A DNA stretch of 45,204 bases, from NCBI GenBank assembly GCA_013388835.1, contig JACAEL010000056.1, positions 1 through 45,204 on the forward strand, written 5' to 3'. The DNA is from Candidatus Thorarchaeota archaeon. GTDB lineage: Archaea > Asgardarchaeota > Thorarchaeia > Thorarchaeales > Thorarchaeaceae. The notes below the pieces were generated by a model that was not told the origin of the DNA, searched no databases, and worked only from the letters and a program-made list of their open reading frames with translations. The number at the start of each line of letters is the position of its first letter. Positions within the stretch are counted from its first letter, which is position 1. The translations under genes and the position numbers were made by a program. Positions 33,806 to 42,721 of the stretch are shown here, in pieces.

Positions 33806-34990
33806 ATGCACAGAGAGATTGCTAAGGGCGTATACTATGTTGGTGTAGACGACCACCACACCCAGCTGTTTGAGAACCTCTGGGCTCTGCCGTTCGGGGT
33901 CTCCTACAACGCCTATCTGATAGTGGACGAGAAGATAGCCCTCGTTGAGACCGTGAAGGGGCCGTGGGCCAAGGAATGGATGGACAACATCTCAGAGCTT
34001 GTCGACCCCGCCAAAATAGACTACATAATACTCAATCACATGGAGCCGGATCACACAGGATCGCTGCCGGATATTGCTGCAGTGGCAAAGAACGCCACTC
34101 TGGTCTATACGCCAAAGGCCTCGTCGATGCAGAAGAGCTTCTACGACGTGCCACTGCGTGAGAAGACAGTCGAGGACCTCGAGGAGATCTCACTGGGCTC
34201 GAAGACTCTCAAGTTCGTCCACGCGCAGTTCTTGCACTGGCCGGAGACGATGATGACATACATCATGGAGGACCAGATTCTCTTCTCGTGTGATGCGTTC
34301 GGGGCGTTTGGTGCACTGAATGGAAAGCACTTCGACGACGAAATAGACCTGCGGATGGTCGAGTCGGAGAGTCGAAGGTACCTGTCGGCCATAATCACCT
34401 CATATCTCAAGTTCATTCAGCAGGGCATAGCCAAGGTCAAAGGACTCGGGATTGGCATCAAGGTCATCGCTCCAAGTCACGGACCCATATATCGAAAGGA
34501 CCCGATGTGGATAGTGACGAGATATGACGCATGGAGCAGGCCAGAGATGGAGAAGTACTGCACCATAGTCTACGGGACAATGTACGGCTTCAACCACAGG
34601 GTGGCAATGAAGCTGAAGAAGGCGCTGATGGAGCTCGGAGTGGAAACGAGAGTCCACAATGTGTCCTACAGCGAAATGAGCAGAGTAGTCACGGACTCTG
34701 TGAGAGCCGGGGTGCTCGTCATAGGCACGCCCACCTACGATGCATTCCCGTTCCCCAAGGTGTGGGCGTTTGTCAACGAAGTTGAAGGTAAGAGATTCCC
34801 CAAGAGACCGATAGCGCTGTTCGGTAACTATGGCTGGGGAGGCGGGGGTCTGAAGAAACTCCGAGCGCAGCTTGAGGGAGCCAAGTTCGAGGTAATAGAG
34901 CCAGTGATTGAGGTCCATGGGAGAGATACTGCATCTGAGGAGGAGAACATCCGAGTACTCGCCAACAAGATTGCAGCGTTGCTGAAGTGA
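33806..34990 (+). CDS. fprA: Flavodiiron protein (A-type flavoprotein, oxygen reductase)
   Basis: It reduces oxygen to water (or NO to N2O) using a diiron site and FMN, protecting anaerobes. The metallo-beta-lactamase domain carries all iron ligands: H78, E80, D82, H83 (NHMEPDH), H144 (FLHWPE), D163 (SCDAFG) and H225 (SHGPIYR). The flavodoxin domain starts near residue 250 (IVYGTMYGFN) and contains GTPTYDAFP and GNYGWGGGG. At 394 residues it is a normal two-domain enzyme without a C-terminal rubredoxin. The electron donor could be F420H2, as in methanogen FprA, or a rubredoxin reduced by the flavoprotein at 41451. The promoter resembles that of the downstream rubrerythrin. Confidence 0.97.
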   Translation: MHREIAKGVYYVGVDDHHTQLFENLWALPFGVSYNAYLIVDEKIALVETVKGPWAKEWMDNISELVDPAKIDYIILNHMEPDHTGSLPDIAAVAKNATLVYTPKASSMQKSFYDVPLREKTVEDLEEISLGSKTLKFVHAQFLHWPETMMTYIMEDQILFSCDAFGAFGALNGKHFDDEIDLRMVESESRRYLSAIITSYLKFIQQGIAKVKGLGIGIKVIAPSHGPIYRKDPMWIVTRYDAWSRPEMEKYCTIVYGTMYGFNHRVAMKLKKALMELGVETRVHNVSYSEMSRVVTDSVRAGVLVIGTPTYDAFPFPKVWAFVNEVEGKRFPKRPIALFGNYGWGGGGLKKLRAQLEGAKFEVIEPVIEVHGRDTASEEENIRVLANKIAALLK

Positions 34991-35100: not shown

Positions 35101-35685
35101 ATGAACCTAAGAGGAACACAGACCGAGAAGAACCTGCTAATCAGTTTCGCTGGCGAGTCCCAGGCGCGAAACCGATACACCTACTATGCGAGCATAGCTC
35201 GCGATGAGGGGTACATACAGATAATGCAGGTCTTTCAGGAGACCGCTGACCAGGAGAAGGAGCATGCAAAACGCTTCTTCAAGATGCTGAAAGAAGGTGG
35301 TGCCACGCCCGAGCTCGAGGTGGGCTACAAGTTTCCGACAGGTCCAATGGGCACTACCGAGGAGAACCTGCGCGCTGCTGCGGCAGGGGAGAAGCATGAG
35401 TTCAGCACTATGTATCCCGGCTTTGCGGCTGTAGCTGAGAAGGAAGGATTCCCAAAGATAGCAGCCCTGTGGAGGATGGTGGCAAAGGCTGAAACATGGC
35501 ATCACGAGAGGTATGTCATGCTGGCAGAGAACATAGCCAAGGGACGCGTCTTCAAGCGAGAGAACAAGGTGAAGTGGCGATGCATCAACTGTGGATACGT
35601 GCATGAGGGAGAGGCTCCGCCCGAGAGATGTCCCGCATGCGACCACCCAAAGTCGTACTTCATGATCCACGATGCCAATTACTAA
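35101..35685 (+). CDS. rbr: Rubrerythrin
   Basis: A peroxide reductase with a diiron four-helix bundle and a C-terminal rubredoxin-like iron site, 194 residues. The bundle ligands are E19 (AGESQARNRY), E52 and H55 (QEKEHAKRF), E97 or E100 and E131 with H134 (AETWHHERY). The rubredoxin domain has CINCGYVHEG (C161, C164) and CPACDHPKS (C177, C180). It lies 110 bp after the flavodiiron gene with its own promoter sharing the same TATA sequence, so the two are likely regulated alike but transcribed separately. Confidence 0.97.
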   Translation: MNLRGTQTEKNLLISFAGESQARNRYTYYASIARDEGYIQIMQVFQETADQEKEHAKRFFKMLKEGGATPELEVGYKFPTGPMGTTEENLRAAAAGEKHEFSTMYPGFAAVAEKEGFPKIAALWRMVAKAETWHHERYVMLAENIAKGRVFKRENKVKWRCINCGYVHEGEAPPERCPACDHPKSYFMIHDANY

Positions 35686-36819: not shown

Positions 36820-36843
36820 ATGCACCACCACCACGAGGAATGA
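36820..36843 (+). CDS. Seven-codon leader peptide with four histidines (uORF)
   Basis: ATG, four CAC codons, GAG, GAA, TGA: Met-His4-Glu2. It is preceded at proper spacing by AAGGAGAG (36810-36817), and its stop overlaps the first ATG of the next gene (36840). A TATA-like TCTAAATA lies near 36783. The ribosome site fits this little frame better than the main gene, so translation may start here and re-initiate. Confidence 0.4.
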   Translation: MHHHHEE

Positions 36844-37772
36844 TGATGACTCTGACCCACCGGACTAAGCAGGACACACTCATAGAACGCCTCTTTCTCT
36901 CAGTCAACGTGGCGTCCATAGTCGCCATCCTGACATGGGGAGTGTTCTATGCAGGATACCTACTCACAAACGAGGCGATTCTTCAGTCCATACTGGATGC
37001 CCTGGCGAACTGGGACTTTCTTGCCTTCCAAGCGGCCATTGAGAGCGTGACCTCAGGGATAATCTCCAGTGACGGATGGGTCAGTGTGGCGATAGGTCTT
37101 GGGTTGCTCTTCATGTCCATCCTCTTCGTACTGAACACAGGAGGCATTGTCTTCTCGGTCTTCATCCACAGGTCGTTCAGTGCCGGAGGAACCCCGACCC
37201 TGAGGTGGTGGCGTCTCAGCATCTCGCGCTTGTATCTAACAGTGAGGCTTGTGTTCTTCATTGCGTTGTACAAAGCCAGCAGCGCCACTGGTTTCGACAT
37301 TCTTCTCAAGCGCTTTCCGGACAACACAGTGCTGAATCTCTCGTTCTTCTTCAGTAGTGCGCTGAGTCTGGGGACAATCATCGTGTTGGCGAGCGTCATC
37401 AAAGTGGTTGTGTATGAGCTGGCCAGATACGAGACCATGATTGAGTCGAATAGGACCAGAATCTCTAGGGCACTGAAGGAGTACCTTGACCGATGGAGAA
37501 ACCAGATGATACTCATAGAGGAGGCGCTGTTTTCTGACGATGTTGGCTACGTCAGGGCCAAGCTGGAGGACGCGACTCGCGACATGAAGTCCGATGTAAG
37601 ACTCCTCGAACGCTCACGATCGGACTTGGACCGGATTGCATCGCCGCAGGAGATAATCCGCAAGCTCTTGCTGACGTTCATAGGAGTGGTGATCATCCAG
37701 ATGGCTGCGGACATAGTCCTGTATGTCGGATGGGGACGTGTATTAGACCTCATTATGGGGTGGATTCTGTGA
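36840..37772 (+). CDS. Membrane protein with cytoplasmic coiled coil
   Basis: 310 residues starting with three consecutive ATG codons. Membrane helices are near residues 22-45, 80-110, 127-145 and 165-195. A charged helical stretch (about 200-275, SNRTRISRALKEYLDRWRNQ onward) is followed by a last helix (LLLTFIGVVIIQMAADIVLYV). No family recognised. The ParA-like gene begins 22 bp after its stop, so the two are likely one operon; a membrane anchor for the ATPase would be a reasonable guess. Confidence 0.8.
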   Translation: MMMTLTHRTKQDTLIERLFLSVNVASIVAILTWGVFYAGYLLTNEAILQSILDALANWDFLAFQAAIESVTSGIISSDGWVSVAIGLGLLFMSILFVLNTGGIVFSVFIHRSFSAGGTPTLRWWRLSISRLYLTVRLVFFIALYKASSATGFDILLKRFPDNTVLNLSFFFSSALSLGTIIVLASVIKVVVYELARYETMIESNRTRISRALKEYLDRWRNQMILIEEALFSDDVGYVRAKLEDATRDMKSDVRLLERSRSDLDRIASPQEIIRKLLLTFIGVVIIQMAADIVLYVGWGRVLDLIMGWIL

Positions 37773-37794: not shown

Positions 37795-38856
37795 ATGAGA
37801 GAACCCATGACTATTGTGGTCACCTCTAACAAGGGAGGTAGCGGCAAGACACCTATAGGAATCAGCACCGTCATTTGGGCATTGTCAAAGCAGCAACCGT
37901 GGAGAGTACTGGCAATTGACATCAACCACACAAACCAAGACCTCTTTCAAGCCCTATCTCATCTCTCCCCCGATGGTGAAGGGAGATTTGAGACCGCTTT
38001 CACCCTCCCAAAGACTGGGACCGCGTACTATCTCCCCTTGAGCGACCGGCTTCACCTCGTCCGTTCCCGAGCGTTCCAGCCGCTGTCACCACCCCAGGTT
38101 TTTGAGATGATTGGCTCCGCTTCCGCCGAGTATGCGAAACAGAAGGGGCAACCGCGATTTGAACCGGACTTGATAGTGCTCGACGCGAACTACTGCTTCC
38201 CCAGCTACAGAATGACCGAGGCGCCAACGGGCAAATACCCTGCCATGTACTTCTTCAACATCTGGAGCATAACCAGCCCGCATGAACTCAGAACGCCTGT
38301 CGACTATCGTACGGCCATCAGCGAGTTTAGAGATGCCTCTGGAAACCAGACATGGGACTCGACCAATTTCATACACATATTTACCCTTCTCGAGAAGGAG
38401 CGGAAGATATCGTCTGAGGTGACGAGACTAGTGAAGATGCAACGAGCTATCTACTCGGTCGCTGGCTCGGATGACCTCGCGGACCTCTATAGGCGAACAG
38501 TGCTGGATACCACGACGAAAAGCACGGGATTCTCGTTCGACCAGATACAGAAGGATGTGTTCACACCAATACTTGCCGAGATCGAGTCGCTGACGGTTGA
38601 GGACCCGTCCGCATACTCTGAAGATGTCATGAACGCCAGATGGATTGAGCGACTCAACATCTTTCTGTCGACTCACAGAGTCTATCCACTCAACGTGCTC
38701 CCTCTTCCTCACCACTATCCCCACCTGAGAAGGAATGTTGTCGACATGATACTTCGAGAGCGGCTGAGTCTGGACCTAGTAAAGCGCATGTTCGGGGACT
38801 TCTTCACATGGATGAGCATGTTCATGGAAAGACGCTTTGCAGAGACCGGTCAGTAG
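37795..38856 (+). CDS. ParA/MinD-like ATPase, unusual P-loop
   Basis: 353 residues. The N-terminus IVVTSNKGGSGKTPIGIST is a deviant Walker A with the signature lysine, in which the residue after GKT is Pro rather than Thr or Ser. DIN takes the place of the DxD usual in the next motif (LAIDINHTNQDL), and LIVLDANYCFP is the Walker B region. The C-terminal half (about 175-353) is longer than in typical ParA proteins and unassigned. The partner is probably the membrane protein encoded 22 bp upstream. Positioning or sorting of a membrane or DNA-bound complex is the family expectation. There is no ParB-like gene here. Confidence 0.8.
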   Translation: MREPMTIVVTSNKGGSGKTPIGISTVIWALSKQQPWRVLAIDINHTNQDLFQALSHLSPDGEGRFETAFTLPKTGTAYYLPLSDRLHLVRSRAFQPLSPPQVFEMIGSASAEYAKQKGQPRFEPDLIVLDANYCFPSYRMTEAPTGKYPAMYFFNIWSITSPHELRTPVDYRTAISEFRDASGNQTWDSTNFIHIFTLLEKERKISSEVTRLVKMQRAIYSVAGSDDLADLYRRTVLDTTTKSTGFSFDQIQKDVFTPILAEIESLTVEDPSAYSEDVMNARWIERLNIFLSTHRVYPLNVLPLPHHYPHLRRNVVDMILRERLSLDLVKRMFGDFFTWMSMFMERRFAETGQ

Positions 38857-39053: not shown

Positions 39054-40145
39054 ATGAGGGAAATGGTCCGAGTAGTACACATCTCTGACTCCCATCTGGG
39101 ATGCTCCATGTTCCAACTGGCCGAGAGAAGAGAAGACTCACGTCGATGCTTTAGAAAGGCAATCGACATGGCCATGCGCCACAAACCTGACGTGATTGTG
39201 CACACAGGAGATCTCTTCGACTCGCCAGACCCTGCTCCTGAAGACCTCAACACAGCTCTTGAGGCATTCAGGGGAATCAAAGACCAAGTTGAGGTGTTTG
39301 TCCTACAGGGCAACCACGACCTCCACTACGGATTCAGAAGGGGAATCAGTCCAATACGCACTCTTGAGGCGGCAGGCGTCGTGAAGGGCACGGGAGACAA
39401 GGTCTACGCGAGACATGTGATCGACGTTGACGGAGAGTCTGTAGAGATTCATCTCATATCCTGGACGAGAATGGAAGAGGTCACCCGGCTGGCTCACTCA
39501 ATCAGGCCTTCAGAAGAGACTGCTCTGCTCTTCTGTCACGACATACCAGATGACAGAGAGAAGATGCCCCCTGACTTCGACTACATAGGCTTTGGACACG
39601 GACACAACTTCTGGCTGGATGAAGAGCTCCGGATGGGCAGACCGGGCTCGACGTGTGTTGTAGACTGGAAGAAGGAACTCGAAGGAAAGAAGAAGCTGAT
39701 AGTCATCGACATCTCAGACGCAGGAAACAAGTACCTCACAGAGACACTGAATGATGTTCGCGAGTTTAAGCTTGTGAGAGGGCTTAACATCACGGGCATG
39801 GGACCCGATGAGGCCAACGGCTTCCTCCGAAAGAAGATAGCCGAGCTCTCGGTCAGGAAGATGACCAGTCCAATCGTAATAATCGAAGTCAATGGCATGG
39901 TTGACGCGGAGACTGACAATTCAATCAGACGGGCTGAACTGCTGGAGCACGGTCTCAAGACTCTCGACCCGCTGTTCCTGCATATCGAGCCGAACTGGAG
40001 GTGTCTGGGCGCCCGACCGGTCGTGCTCAGGGAACCACTGAACGTTGAGAGGTCCGTCGCAGACTACATGGAACAGACCGGCGAAACAGACTCACAAAGC
40101 TTGCTTTCACTATTGAGAGAGATAGAGGAGGGGTCTGCAAATTGA
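39054..40145 (+). CDS. Mre11/SbcD-like metallophosphoesterase nuclease
   Basis: 363 residues. The two-metal phosphoesterase motifs are complete: HISDSHLG (9-16), HTGDLFDS (about 49-56), LQGNHDLHYG, FCHDIPD and FGHGHNF. This set is typical of Mre11/SbcD DNA-end nucleases. The C-terminal 130 residues are alpha/beta and acidic at the end, as expected for a Rad50-binding region. It shares a four-base overlap (TTGA) with the Rad50-like gene, so the pair is coupled and surely forms a complex. It is somewhat shorter than many archaeal Mre11 proteins. Whether it is the housekeeping repair nuclease or a specialised relative depends on whether the genome also has a full-length pair. Confidence 0.92.
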   Translation: MREMVRVVHISDSHLGCSMFQLAERREDSRRCFRKAIDMAMRHKPDVIVHTGDLFDSPDPAPEDLNTALEAFRGIKDQVEVFVLQGNHDLHYGFRRGISPIRTLEAAGVVKGTGDKVYARHVIDVDGESVEIHLISWTRMEEVTRLAHSIRPSEETALLFCHDIPDDREKMPPDFDYIGFGHGHNFWLDEELRMGRPGSTCVVDWKKELEGKKKLIVIDISDAGNKYLTETLNDVREFKLVRGLNITGMGPDEANGFLRKKIAELSVRKMTSPIVIIEVNGMVDAETDNSIRRAELLEHGLKTLDPLFLHIEPNWRCLGARPVVLREPLNVERSVADYMEQTGETDSQSLLSLLREIEEGSAN

Positions 40146-41446
40146 TCAACAAGATCAGACTGAGAGACTTCAAGGTGTTCTCAGACCAAGAGCTCAGCTT
40201 CGGCGAAGGAATCACATCGATAGTTGGTCCAAACGGAACAGGAAAGACAACAGTCCTTGAGGCCATTGAGTTTGCACTGTTCAAACAAGTGAGAAGAAAG
40301 GACAAGCAGGTCCGACGAGTGGAGGACTTCATCCGACACGGGCAGAACAACGCAAATGTGGACCTATGGTTCACAGCACCCGTCAATGGCAGAGAATACA
40401 AGGTCTCGAGGTCAATCCATAAGGGGCAGACAAGTGCGGACCTGTATCAGGCGGGCGACAAGAGCCCGCTGGTGTCGGGTCCCGAGAAGGTGGACGCGGA
40501 GATTGTGAAACTACTGGGCGTAAACCGGGACGCCTTCTCCGCTCTCACATATGTTCGGCAGGGAGAGATAGACCAACTATCAAGGAAGACCCCCAAGGAG
40601 AGGAAGGAATACCTCTTCGACATGATGGGACTCGGGATGTACACTGCTGTGGCTGGTAGGGTCCAGAAGAGAGCTGCAGAGATAGCGAAGGAAGTCAAGG
40701 GATTGGAAGAGTCCAAACAGAAGCTCTTGGAACTGAGGGGACACTTTCCGGCTCAAGATGACGTGCTAGCTGCAGTTCAAGCAGTGAAGCGCCTTGAGGG
40801 GTCGCTTGGAAGCAGTCCGGACATCGATGTGATAAGTAGGGTACTGGAAGCGGTGGAGTCTGCACTAGTAAGGATCTCAACGGACATAGACTCCTTGGAC
40901 CTGTCGAAGAGCCAGGATACACTGAAGAAACGGTCAGAGCTTGCCAAGCGGCTCAGGCAGATAGTAGAGGCCATCCCGCAAGTGGCAGAAGAACAGCTCA
41001 GACCACTAGTGAGAGAAGAGGCAAAGGCCATCTTCCTGAACATCTTCGGCGACAGATACAGTGACCTCGTCCTAGACGATGACTACAAGGTCTCACTCTA
41101 CAATGTTCAGGGACATCCGGTTCCTCTTGTTGCAGCCTCCGGTGGAGAAGACGTGTGTGTCAACTTCGCGCTCAGAGTGGGAGTCAACACCGCTCTCCAG
41201 AAGTATGCTGCATCGAATCAGGCCTTCAAGGGGAGCGCGCTCAAGCTCATAATCCTCGATGAACCGGGTGCGGGTCTGGATGCTCAACGCAGGAGATGGC
41301 TACCCGAAGCAGTGAGAGCACTGGAGTCAGTCAGACAGGTGATTGTTGTCACGCACATGGACGAGTTGCGCGAAGCCGCTGACACTGTCATCTCACTCAC
41401 ACCCCAGGGCAAGGGAAGGCAGCCGGCAGTGGAAGTCCAGCACTAG
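40142..41446 (+). CDS. Short Rad50/SMC-like ATPase without zinc hook
   Basis: 434 residues, about half the length of usual archaeal Rad50. The ATPase parts are intact: Walker A GPNGTGKTT (29-37), Q-loop YVRQGEIDQLSR (137-148), ABC signature ASGGEDVCVNFALR (332-345), Walker B LIILDEPGAGLD (369-380) and switch His in VVTHMDE (402-408). The segment between the two halves (about 165-290) is a short helical linker with no CxxC hook; the only Cys in the protein is in the signature block. The TTG start at 40142 overlaps the nuclease stop. So it can form the ATP-clamped head dimer, but not the long hooked arms of Rad50. Confidence 0.9.
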   Translation: MINKIRLRDFKVFSDQELSFGEGITSIVGPNGTGKTTVLEAIEFALFKQVRRKDKQVRRVEDFIRHGQNNANVDLWFTAPVNGREYKVSRSIHKGQTSADLYQAGDKSPLVSGPEKVDAEIVKLLGVNRDAFSALTYVRQGEIDQLSRKTPKERKEYLFDMMGLGMYTAVAGRVQKRAAEIAKEVKGLEESKQKLLELRGHFPAQDDVLAAVQAVKRLEGSLGSSPDIDVISRVLEAVESALVRISTDIDSLDLSKSQDTLKKRSELAKRLRQIVEAIPQVAEEQLRPLVREEAKAIFLNIFGDRYSDLVLDDDYKVSLYNVQGHPVPLVAASGGEDVCVNFALRVGVNTALQKYAASNQAFKGSALKLIILDEPGAGLDAQRRRWLPEAVRALESVRQVIVVTHMDELREAADTVISLTPQGKGRQPAVEVQH

Positions 41447-41450
41447 AACA

Positions 41451-42638
41451 CTAGGTCTCAAAGATGCTCTCCCGCATATCGGTGACGTCTGTTCCGGATG
41501 TGACAAGCTGTCTGAGCTTGAGTGCGACCTTCTTGTCCCCAAGTGCGATGCCTCCCACCACAACATGATCCTTCAGGACGGCCTTGAAGTAGGTCCCGGC
41601 ATCAGCATCGGAAGACACGATGGACTCGTATTCTGTCGACAGGGGGTTGATGACCCCCAGCGAAGTCAGGTCAATCCCTGCCACCTGAAGCGTGTTTGAC
41701 GGCACGATGCCATCAAAGGCCGCGGAGCCATGCTGCACAATGTTCTGCGCGGCAACCCGGCCCGTTTCAAGTGCGGCCGGAATGATCCCCCAAGTCTGTC
41801 CGTTCCACTCGATACAGTCGCCCGCCGCATAGACGCCATCTGCAGATGTCTTCATCGTTGAATCGACCTTGACCCCCCTTCCGCACAGCAGTCCGGACTC
41901 CTGGGCCACCGTCTTGTTTGGCCTGACACCCGCCGCAATCACTACCATGTCCCCCTTCACCTTGTCGCCTCCTGAAGACATGACCCCAGTGACACTCTCA
42001 TGGCCGATGATCTGTTCACAGTTGAAACCCAGAAGAAGCTCGAGACCCGTGGCCTTCAGACGTTCGGCCAGCATGCTGCTTGCGCCGTCGTCCAGCTGCT
42101 GTGGAAGTAGTCGCGCAATGTTGTTGATAACGACTAGCTCTCTACCCCTGGCCTTCATTGCAGCTGCAAGCTCTATTCCGAGTATTCCACCGCCGATGAC
42201 AATGGCGCGTCTGGCAGTCGCAATCGCTTCCTTGATGCTGATGGCGTCATCCAGCGTACGAAGCACATACACATTCTTCTTCTCCGTCCCGTGTATGGGG
42301 GGCACAAGCGGAATACTACCTGGCACGACCAATAGCCGGTCATATGAGAAGTGCGTGGACTTGCGAGTCAACAGGCTCCTAGAAGAGAGCTCGATACGAA
42401 CCACGGTCTCATCCAGATGAAGCGAGATGTCTTGCTTCCTGTACCAATCCACATCATACTGAATGACCTTCTCTTGTGGGATTCGTCCAGCAATGAACTC
42501 GATGAGTTTGGGTTTCGGATAGTATGCGTACTTTTCGTCCGAGAACACATCGATGGTAACCGAAGACTCCAGCTTACGAATCTCTCGAATCGCGGTCACA
42601 GCAGCGACTCCATTGCCCATGATTCCGATGCGCGTCAT
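41451..42638 (-). CDS. FAD-dependent NAD(P)H oxidoreductase, rubredoxin/nitrite-reductase-like
   Basis: 395 residues from ATG 42638 (MTRIGIMGNGVAA). It has the N-terminal FAD motif GIMGNGVAAVTA, the NAD(P)H motif VIGGGILGIELAA and the second FAD motif VYAAGDCIEW. No redox-active CxxC is seen. The overall layout matches NADH:rubredoxin reductases and the flavoprotein part of NirB. In this genome it could supply electrons to a rubredoxin that feeds the flavodiiron protein or rubrerythrin. The frame extends to 42719 without family similarity. It is convergent with the Rad50-like gene, 4 bp apart. Confidence 0.9.
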   Translation of the reverse strand: MTRIGIMGNGVAAVTAIREIRKLESSVTIDVFSDEKYAYYPKPKLIEFIAGRIPQEKVIQYDVDWYRKQDISLHLDETVVRIELSSRSLLTRKSTHFSYDRLLVVPGSIPLVPPIHGTEKKNVYVLRTLDDAISIKEAIATARRAIVIGGGILGIELAAAMKARGRELVVINNIARLLPQQLDDGASSMLAERLKATGLELLLGFNCEQIIGHESVTGVMSSGGDKVKGDMVVIAAGVRPNKTVAQESGLLCGRGVKVDSTMKTSADGVYAAGDCIEWNGQTWGIIPAALETGRVAAQNIVQHGSAAFDGIVPSNTLQVAGIDLTSLGVINPLSTEYESIVSSDADAGTYFKAVLKDHVVVGGIALGDKKVALKLRQLVTSGTDVTDMRESIFET

Positions 42639-42721
42639 TGTGCGACTCACCAGGGGACGAACTGAGACAGCAAAGAGACGACTCGGCCTTTTGAGTTCGA
42701 CGGAGCCATCGGTTGACAAAG

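Follow-up and report, generated by a model that had tools for sequence, protein, structure and literature searches.

The zinc hook is usually counted among the basic elements of Rad50; canonical Rad50 combines a bipartite ABC ATPase head carrying six motifs with long coiled-coil arms and a CxxC hook. The gene pair reported here shares its head fold, its motifs and its Mre11 partner with archaeal Mre11-Rad50 (M. jannaschii 3auy, 3av0 and 5dny; P. furiosus 3qku), including the nuclease motifs of Mre11; two helices are also predicted at the C-terminus of the nuclease, where Rad50 would bind. In contrast to these complexes, it has no zinc hook, its arm is approximately 120 residues long, it forms a separate clade, and neither HerA nor NurA was recognised alongside it. 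The ASRPs (coalescin, Sph) and arcadin-4 are archaeal SMC/Rad50 relatives, as is the short Rad50 of this pair, referred to below as mini-Rad50; unlike mini-Rad50, most ASRPs carry a zinc hook (PMC9389158). Hook-free heads with arm stubs have been combined with Mre11 in truncated laboratory Rad50-NBD constructs: P. furiosus Rad50 residues 1-195 joined through a linker to residues 709-882 formed an active complex with Mre11 in the absence of the hook and most of the arms (PMC8824468). Mini-Rad50 resembles these constructs, but it is natural and contains no engineered linker.

The window, that is, the whole stretch of 45,204 nucleotides of Thorarchaeota DNA that was analysed, contains the pair at the positions listed in Table 1. 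A hookless or short Rad50 of this kind was not described in the titles and abstract openings of the open-licence papers that a literature search listed, which is weak evidence of absence.

Architecture of the mini-Rad50 and Mre11-like pair

The TTG start of mini-Rad50 was found within the TGA stop of the Mre11-like open reading frame, giving a 4 bp overlap. The Mre11-like gene was directly upstream of mini-Rad50 in all 20 loci with upstream sequence (L040-L059), and wherever the spacing between the two genes was measured (19 loci and the window, 20 of 20) it ranged from -4 to +9 bp. The coupling of a mini-Rad50 to an Mre11-like nuclease, which the preliminary description had proposed from this one stretch, was thus confirmed by the same pair in the loci of relatives.

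Table 1. Coordinates of the gene pair, its parts and neighbours in the window, and of membrane-type Rad50 genes in other Asgard loci
Feature	Position	Strand	Evidence or remark
Flavodiiron-type protein	33806-34990		Near the pair
Rubrerythrin	35101-35685		Near the pair; also nearby in 3 loci
Membrane protein	36840-37772		Before the pair; no family match
ParA/MinD-like P-loop protein	37795-38856		Directly before the pair; sub-threshold MipZ match only
Mre11-like nuclease, 363 aa	39054-40145	+	Pfam Metallophos E 5.8e-12, motif alignment, AlphaFold2
Hookless mini-Rad50, 434 aa	40142-41446	+	Pfam, NCBIfam, motif alignment, AlphaFold2
N-terminal ATPase lobe, residues 1-157	40142-40612	+	Walker A 29-36, Q-loop 137-141
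Short arm, residues 158-285	40613-40996	+	AlphaFold2 helices; no cysteine
C-terminal ATPase lobe, residues 286-434	40997-41443	+	Signature, Walker B 369-375, D-loop, H-loop
Rubredoxin-reductase-like oxidoreductase	41451-42719		Opposite strand to the pair
Putative membrane-type Rad50	L174 1809-4187		
Putative membrane-type Rad50	L175 2008-4371		
Putative membrane-type Rad50	L176 4328-6691		
Putative membrane-type Rad50	L177 2113-4479		
Putative membrane-type Rad50	L178 5249-7624		
Putative membrane-type Rad50	L179 5393-7759		
Putative membrane-type Rad50	L185 2199-4517		
Putative membrane-type Rad50	L189 4238-7465		
Putative membrane-type Rad50	L192 440-2866		
Putative membrane-type Rad50	L030 34-2364		
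Putative membrane-type Rad50	L032 46-2409		
Putative membrane-type Rad50	L163 2584-5268		

The best NCBIfam match of mini-Rad50 was the archaeal Rad50 model (E 3.8e-44), and the Pfam AAA_23 match had an E-value of 3e-25; both libraries placed the protein among the Rad50/SbcC/SMC ATPases. The archaeal Rad50 model matched across both head lobes, which excludes a chance open reading frame. Walker A (GPNGTGKT, residues 29-36), Q-loop (YVRQG, 137-141), signature (ASGGED, 332-337), Walker B (DEP, 373-375), D-loop (376-380) and H-loop (H405) were all present, and across all 19 aligned members the six motifs were unchanged or differed by conservative substitutions only, so that the earlier statement that every catalytic motif of the ATPase is kept extends to the family and the head is that of a canonical Rad50. 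With 150.8 bits at best, mini-Rad50 missed the curated NCBIfam Rad50 cut-off of 1000; two hooked Rad50s scanned in the same way also fell below curated cut-offs, and so did the other Mre11s of the lineage that were scanned. It was likewise below the ASRP, arcadin-4 and RecF cut-offs (32.5 against 300, 72.2 against 860 and 54.5 against 172 bits, respectively). The AlphaFold2 model (pLDDT 88.2) aligned with MjRad50 (3auy_A) over 358 residues with a Z score of 32.9 and an rmsd of 3.6, and the solved chains closest to it were truncated archaeal Rad50 heads.

The best NCBIfam match of the partner was among the Mre11/SbcD nucleases (E 2.9e-22), below the curated cut-off. The phosphoesterase motifs DxH, GD, GNHD, H and GHxH were found in all 18 aligned sequences: D12, H14, D53, N87, H88, D89, H162, H182 and H184 were invariant, and of ten motif positions only position 56 varied (D, H or E). 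The nuclease thus retains its metal ligands. Besides these motifs the protein contains a capping region. Its AlphaFold2 model (pLDDT 90.8) had M. jannaschii Mre11 from the Mre11-Rad50-DNA complex (5dny_A, E 1.2e-18) as the best Foldseek match, and two predicted helices (331-342 and 347-358) end the protein at the position expected for the helix-loop-helix that binds Rad50. By homology and motifs, the pair belongs to the Mre11-Rad50 lineage, and its ATPase is a variant lacking the hook, as distinct from a canonical Rad50.

The departure from canonical Rad50 lies in the hook and the long coiled-coil arms, both of which are missing. Measured from the conserved MMGL (161) to AExQL (281), the arm in the window is 120 residues long, close to the 125 or so first estimated, and the range over all 19 aligned members was 116-120 residues, although mean pairwise identity within the family was 37% in the arm compared to 61% in the N-lobe and 72% in the C-lobe. 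CxxC was absent from all 20 sequences of the alignment (the window and 19 loci), as was any arm cysteine, the only cysteines being in the heads. When L021 (G012) is read from an upstream start, the N-terminal extension so gained has a CxxC at residue 3, which lies outside the arm. Whole proteins were 424-458 aa in the window and the 19 aligned loci, compared to 661-1003 aa for the hooked archaeal Rad50s analysed. As a control, 13 hooked Thorarchaeota Rad50s were found to be near-constant in length as well (691-700 aa). Constant arm length therefore shows constraint, yet it does not set the mini form apart.

Helices were predicted by AlphaFold2 at residues 166-200, 205-222, 226-249 and 252-302. 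This arrangement suggests that the arm folds back on itself as an antiparallel hairpin, the breaks near 201-204 and 250-252 lying opposite each other and the apex falling near 223-225. A near-invariant LP occupies positions 202-203, and a further helix break lies at 250-252. Arm insertions and deletions fall in the loop around 223-226, which is poorly conserved, and identity at the tip was 31%.

Distribution, descent and other Rad50 sets

Scanning GTDB contigs for a pattern from one protein, the one search in which bacteria were covered, gave 23 loci: 18 from Thorarchaeota, two labelled 'archaeon', two labelled 'Lokiarchaeota' and one from Chloroflexota. The Chloroflexota match was a weak Walker A match, and the other 22 loci were in archaeal records. 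The 20-sequence alignment left out L051 and L060, which contig ends truncate, the relic L061 and the unrelated L062, and the 19-row alignment of mini-Rad50 additionally left out L047, a near copy of L046. In separately assembled relatives the pair recurred with its neighbourhood, at 46-57% identity.

Within the Thorarchaeota family of the window, mini-Rad50 was found in 24 of 47 genomes (in G005 and G024 as a contig-end fragment only), and these genomes overlap with the scanned loci, so that the two are not independent counts. Mini-Mre11 was found in exactly the same 24 genomes, a co-occurrence that is partly expected from the linkage of adjacent genes; weak matches in G218, G011 and G021 (E 1e-16 to 1e-22) were other Mre11s. 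In G009, a 55-residue C-terminal scrap of mini-Rad50 lies beside the same oxidoreductase that follows the pair elsewhere (L061 5995-6159, which is the same stretch from PRDJ01000075; L077 6942-7106), and no trace of mini-Mre11 was detected in the stretch at E <= 1e-3. These findings indicate that the pair can be lost.

No short, complete homologue was found outside the family, either in the Asgard search (227 genomes in all, E <= 1e-30) or among 392 relatives that overlap these genomes and include other archaeal phyla (E <= 1e-36). Matches outside the family covered the N-lobe only and came mostly from frames of 661-1005 aa, a few being cut by contig ends. A short-armed homologue as near as an ordinary Rad50 should outscore such N-lobe matches, because both lobes would align at once. 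No mini-Rad50 relative was confirmed on viral contigs and no phage or plasmid match covered at least 80% of the query, and a mobile or viral origin was rejected on these grounds.

A hooked-type Rad50 of approximately 700 aa was present in 47 of 47 family genomes. In the genome of the window, one contig (C14) starts such a cluster with a 431-aa gene, followed by a HerA-like helicase (PF01935, E 4.5e-15), then Mre11 and last a Rad50 of 700 aa whose hook is CPTC at 347. The second, full-length Mre11-Rad50-HerA-NurA cluster for which a search had been recommended was thus found as to Mre11, Rad50 and HerA, NurA being assigned by position alone, as the 431-aa gene at its place matched no Pfam or NCBIfam model. 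Since the same genome holds this cluster, the mini pair is distinct from the housekeeping pair, as had been supposed. No HerA or NurA match occurred among the eight scanned neighbours of the mini pair in the window; in the hooked clusters scanned, HerA was recognised, and NurA in one case. A third Rad50, of approximately 934 aa, was found in 5 of 47 family genomes. The full-length copies in G008 and G018 carry CPKC and lie beside a HerA-sized gene (L064 2077-8743 and L067 1927-8593, respectively), and both HerA and NurA were recognised by models in the G008 set (L064).

Other changes at the apex were observed among Asgard Rad50s. Twelve proteins of 772-1075 aa are without CxxC and carry at the apex a hydrophobic stretch that, from sequence, resembles a transmembrane hairpin (Table 1). 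Peak hydropathy there was 2.3-3.0 over 19 residues, and the same scan gave no apex peak in the hooked rows or in mini-Rad50. Most of these genes are preceded by an Mre11-like gene and by a gene of about the size of HerA. Anchoring of a break-repair complex in the membrane would, if true, be a greater surprise than the mini pair. In L167 (4832-7543), a 903-aa Rad50 has CPILNEQC in mid-protein in place of CxxC, possibly a variant hook whose cysteines are spaced further apart.

In a tree of 65 Rad50/SMC head sequences, the 21 mini-Rad50 rows formed one clade (100/100), as did the Thorarchaeota rows of approximately 700 aa (100/98) and the 12 membrane-hairpin rows (100/99); this tree was built without six of the 13 Thorarchaeota hooked rows and without L161, L167 and E. 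coli. An earlier tree of 58 rows gave the mini-Rad50 clade at 100/99, and the rows of approximately 700 aa likewise formed a single clade. In trees rooted on two SMCs, Rad50 and SMC were split at 100/98 with mini-Rad50 on the Rad50 side, and the 65-row tree did not resolve how the mini, 700-aa and membrane-hairpin clades join. The placement recommended at the outset thus gave mini-Rad50 a deep and fully supported clade of its own, and for this reason mini-Rad50 is an old paralogue and not a fresh truncation. The separate clades also rule out that the hooked Rad50 of this genome was recently truncated to give it. The Mre11 tree contained mini (16 rows, 100/100), membrane-type (7 rows, 100/99) and housekeeping (4 rows, 100/99) clades; it joined the mini and membrane-type clades weakly (87/68), and the Rad50 tree did not join them. 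Because the Mre11 and Rad50 trees give the same groups, the mini pair is an old paralogous pair that has travelled together.

A probable clamp without tethering, and the alternatives

We think it fairly probable that the pair represents an ancient Mre11-Rad50 paralogue passed on vertically, with a Rad50 made of a head and a short, fixed-length helical arm, which works as an ATP-gated clamp and cutter without tethering; its activity and role are what we infer from sequence and predicted structure. Two mini-Rad50 and two mini-Mre11 would form the usual head complex, with the helix-loop-helix of Mre11 docked on the base of the Rad50 arm. ATP would close the heads on DNA, and its hydrolysis would open them, after which Mre11 could cut ends or hairpins. 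The short arm would serve as the Mre11 docking site and as a lever. With 53 ascending residues at 1.5 A, it would reach approximately 8 nm at most and, having no hook either, would not bridge distant DNA ends. Tethering and long-range resection would consequently be left to the housekeeping hooked Mre11-Rad50-HerA set. The minimal end-processing clamp offered in the preliminary description is compatible with the predicted fold and motifs, and its cutting activity is a presumed one.

The least improbable alternative is that the complex still tethers DNA, through a non-zinc apex contact of the short arms or through a separate protein that replaces the hook. The paired helix breaks (LP at 202-203 and 250-252) hint that the joint or tip is organised, and stable apex dimerisation was argued to be essential in vivo (PMC6969161), a view also drawn from hook-replacement experiments. 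In yeast, truncation of the Rad50 arm is reported to have abolished or impaired functions (PMC5082667). A hook-free machine may therefore need another dimer contact or a partner. However, the loop at the presumed tip (223-226) is where arm insertions and deletions fall and is poorly conserved, and apart from Mre11 no neighbouring gene is found in every locus. We consider tethering by the mini pair unlikely.

An assignment to defence, as an ATPase-nuclease pair akin to the Rad50-like ATPases of MADS or Lamassu, was also weighed. The PADLOC model mad3 (PDLC04135, 374 positions), which describes the short Rad50-like ATPase of MADS, was matched end to end by mini-Rad50 (residues 2-432, E 1.2e-33), LmuB was matched at E 6.7e-21, and presence of the pair is patchy (24 of 47 genomes, plus one relic). 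However, the hooked 934-aa Rad50 matched mad3 at E 2.4e-31, a score hardly below that of mini-Rad50, and LmuB at E 2e-36, so both matches are generic. T4 gp46, a phage SbcC-like protein, keeps a zinc-binding apex. Mini-Rad50 matched the phage family phrog_77 at E 7.8e-37, but no phage record covered at least 80% of it; the coil of phage SbcC-like proteins is shorter than that of cellular Rad50 (PMC3175470). The neighbourhood is conserved and metabolic, with no variable island, and the viral-contig, phage and plasmid searches gave no confirmed or full-length relative that would point to defence. The defence system suggested in the preliminary description is thus improbable.

The neighbourhood of the pair in the window has the appearance of an oxygen or peroxide detoxification region, with a flavodiiron-type protein, a rubrerythrin and a rubredoxin-reductase-like oxidoreductase. 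The last gene is convergent and directly downstream in 17 of the 20 loci with downstream sequence, one gene further in L043 and missing from L050 and L059. The two genes preceding the pair in the window, encoding a membrane protein and a ParA/MinD-like protein, were rejected as parts of the system, as none of the 23 loci had a homologue of either in its flanks. A role in repair under oxygen or peroxide stress would agree with the recurrent oxidoreductase and with rubrerythrin near the pair in the window and three loci, but opposite strands mean that no transcript is shared, common descent alone can conserve neighbours, and a HAD hydrolase scored under every curated phosphoglycolate phosphatase cut-off. 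We regard such a link as slightly less probable again than a role in defence.

That mini-Rad50 is an assembly error or what is left of a full-length Rad50 in decay, for which the decayed relic at the conserved place in G009 might speak, has next to no probability: the full-length orthologue at the locus that this explanation predicted was not found, the same-length gene lies behind the same Mre11 at 20 loci elsewhere and occurs in the 24 genomes, its motifs are invariant, and its deep clade stands apart from the hooked copies, which rules out error and pseudogene alike.

Implications for Asgard Rad50

The archaea that host the mini pair stand near the origin of eukaryotes. We suggest, tentatively, that two Mre11-Rad50 jobs may be separated in them, a hooked machine that tethers and resects and a hook-free machine with a fixed arm that clamps and cuts, and that the Asgard Rad50 apex may be a swappable part: a hook, a membrane anchor or nothing. 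For structural studies, the mini pair offers a head complex that is small and already trimmed by nature. Because conserved hook-free and hooked forms of Mre11-Rad50 occur naturally side by side, it could be asked directly which functions need tethering.
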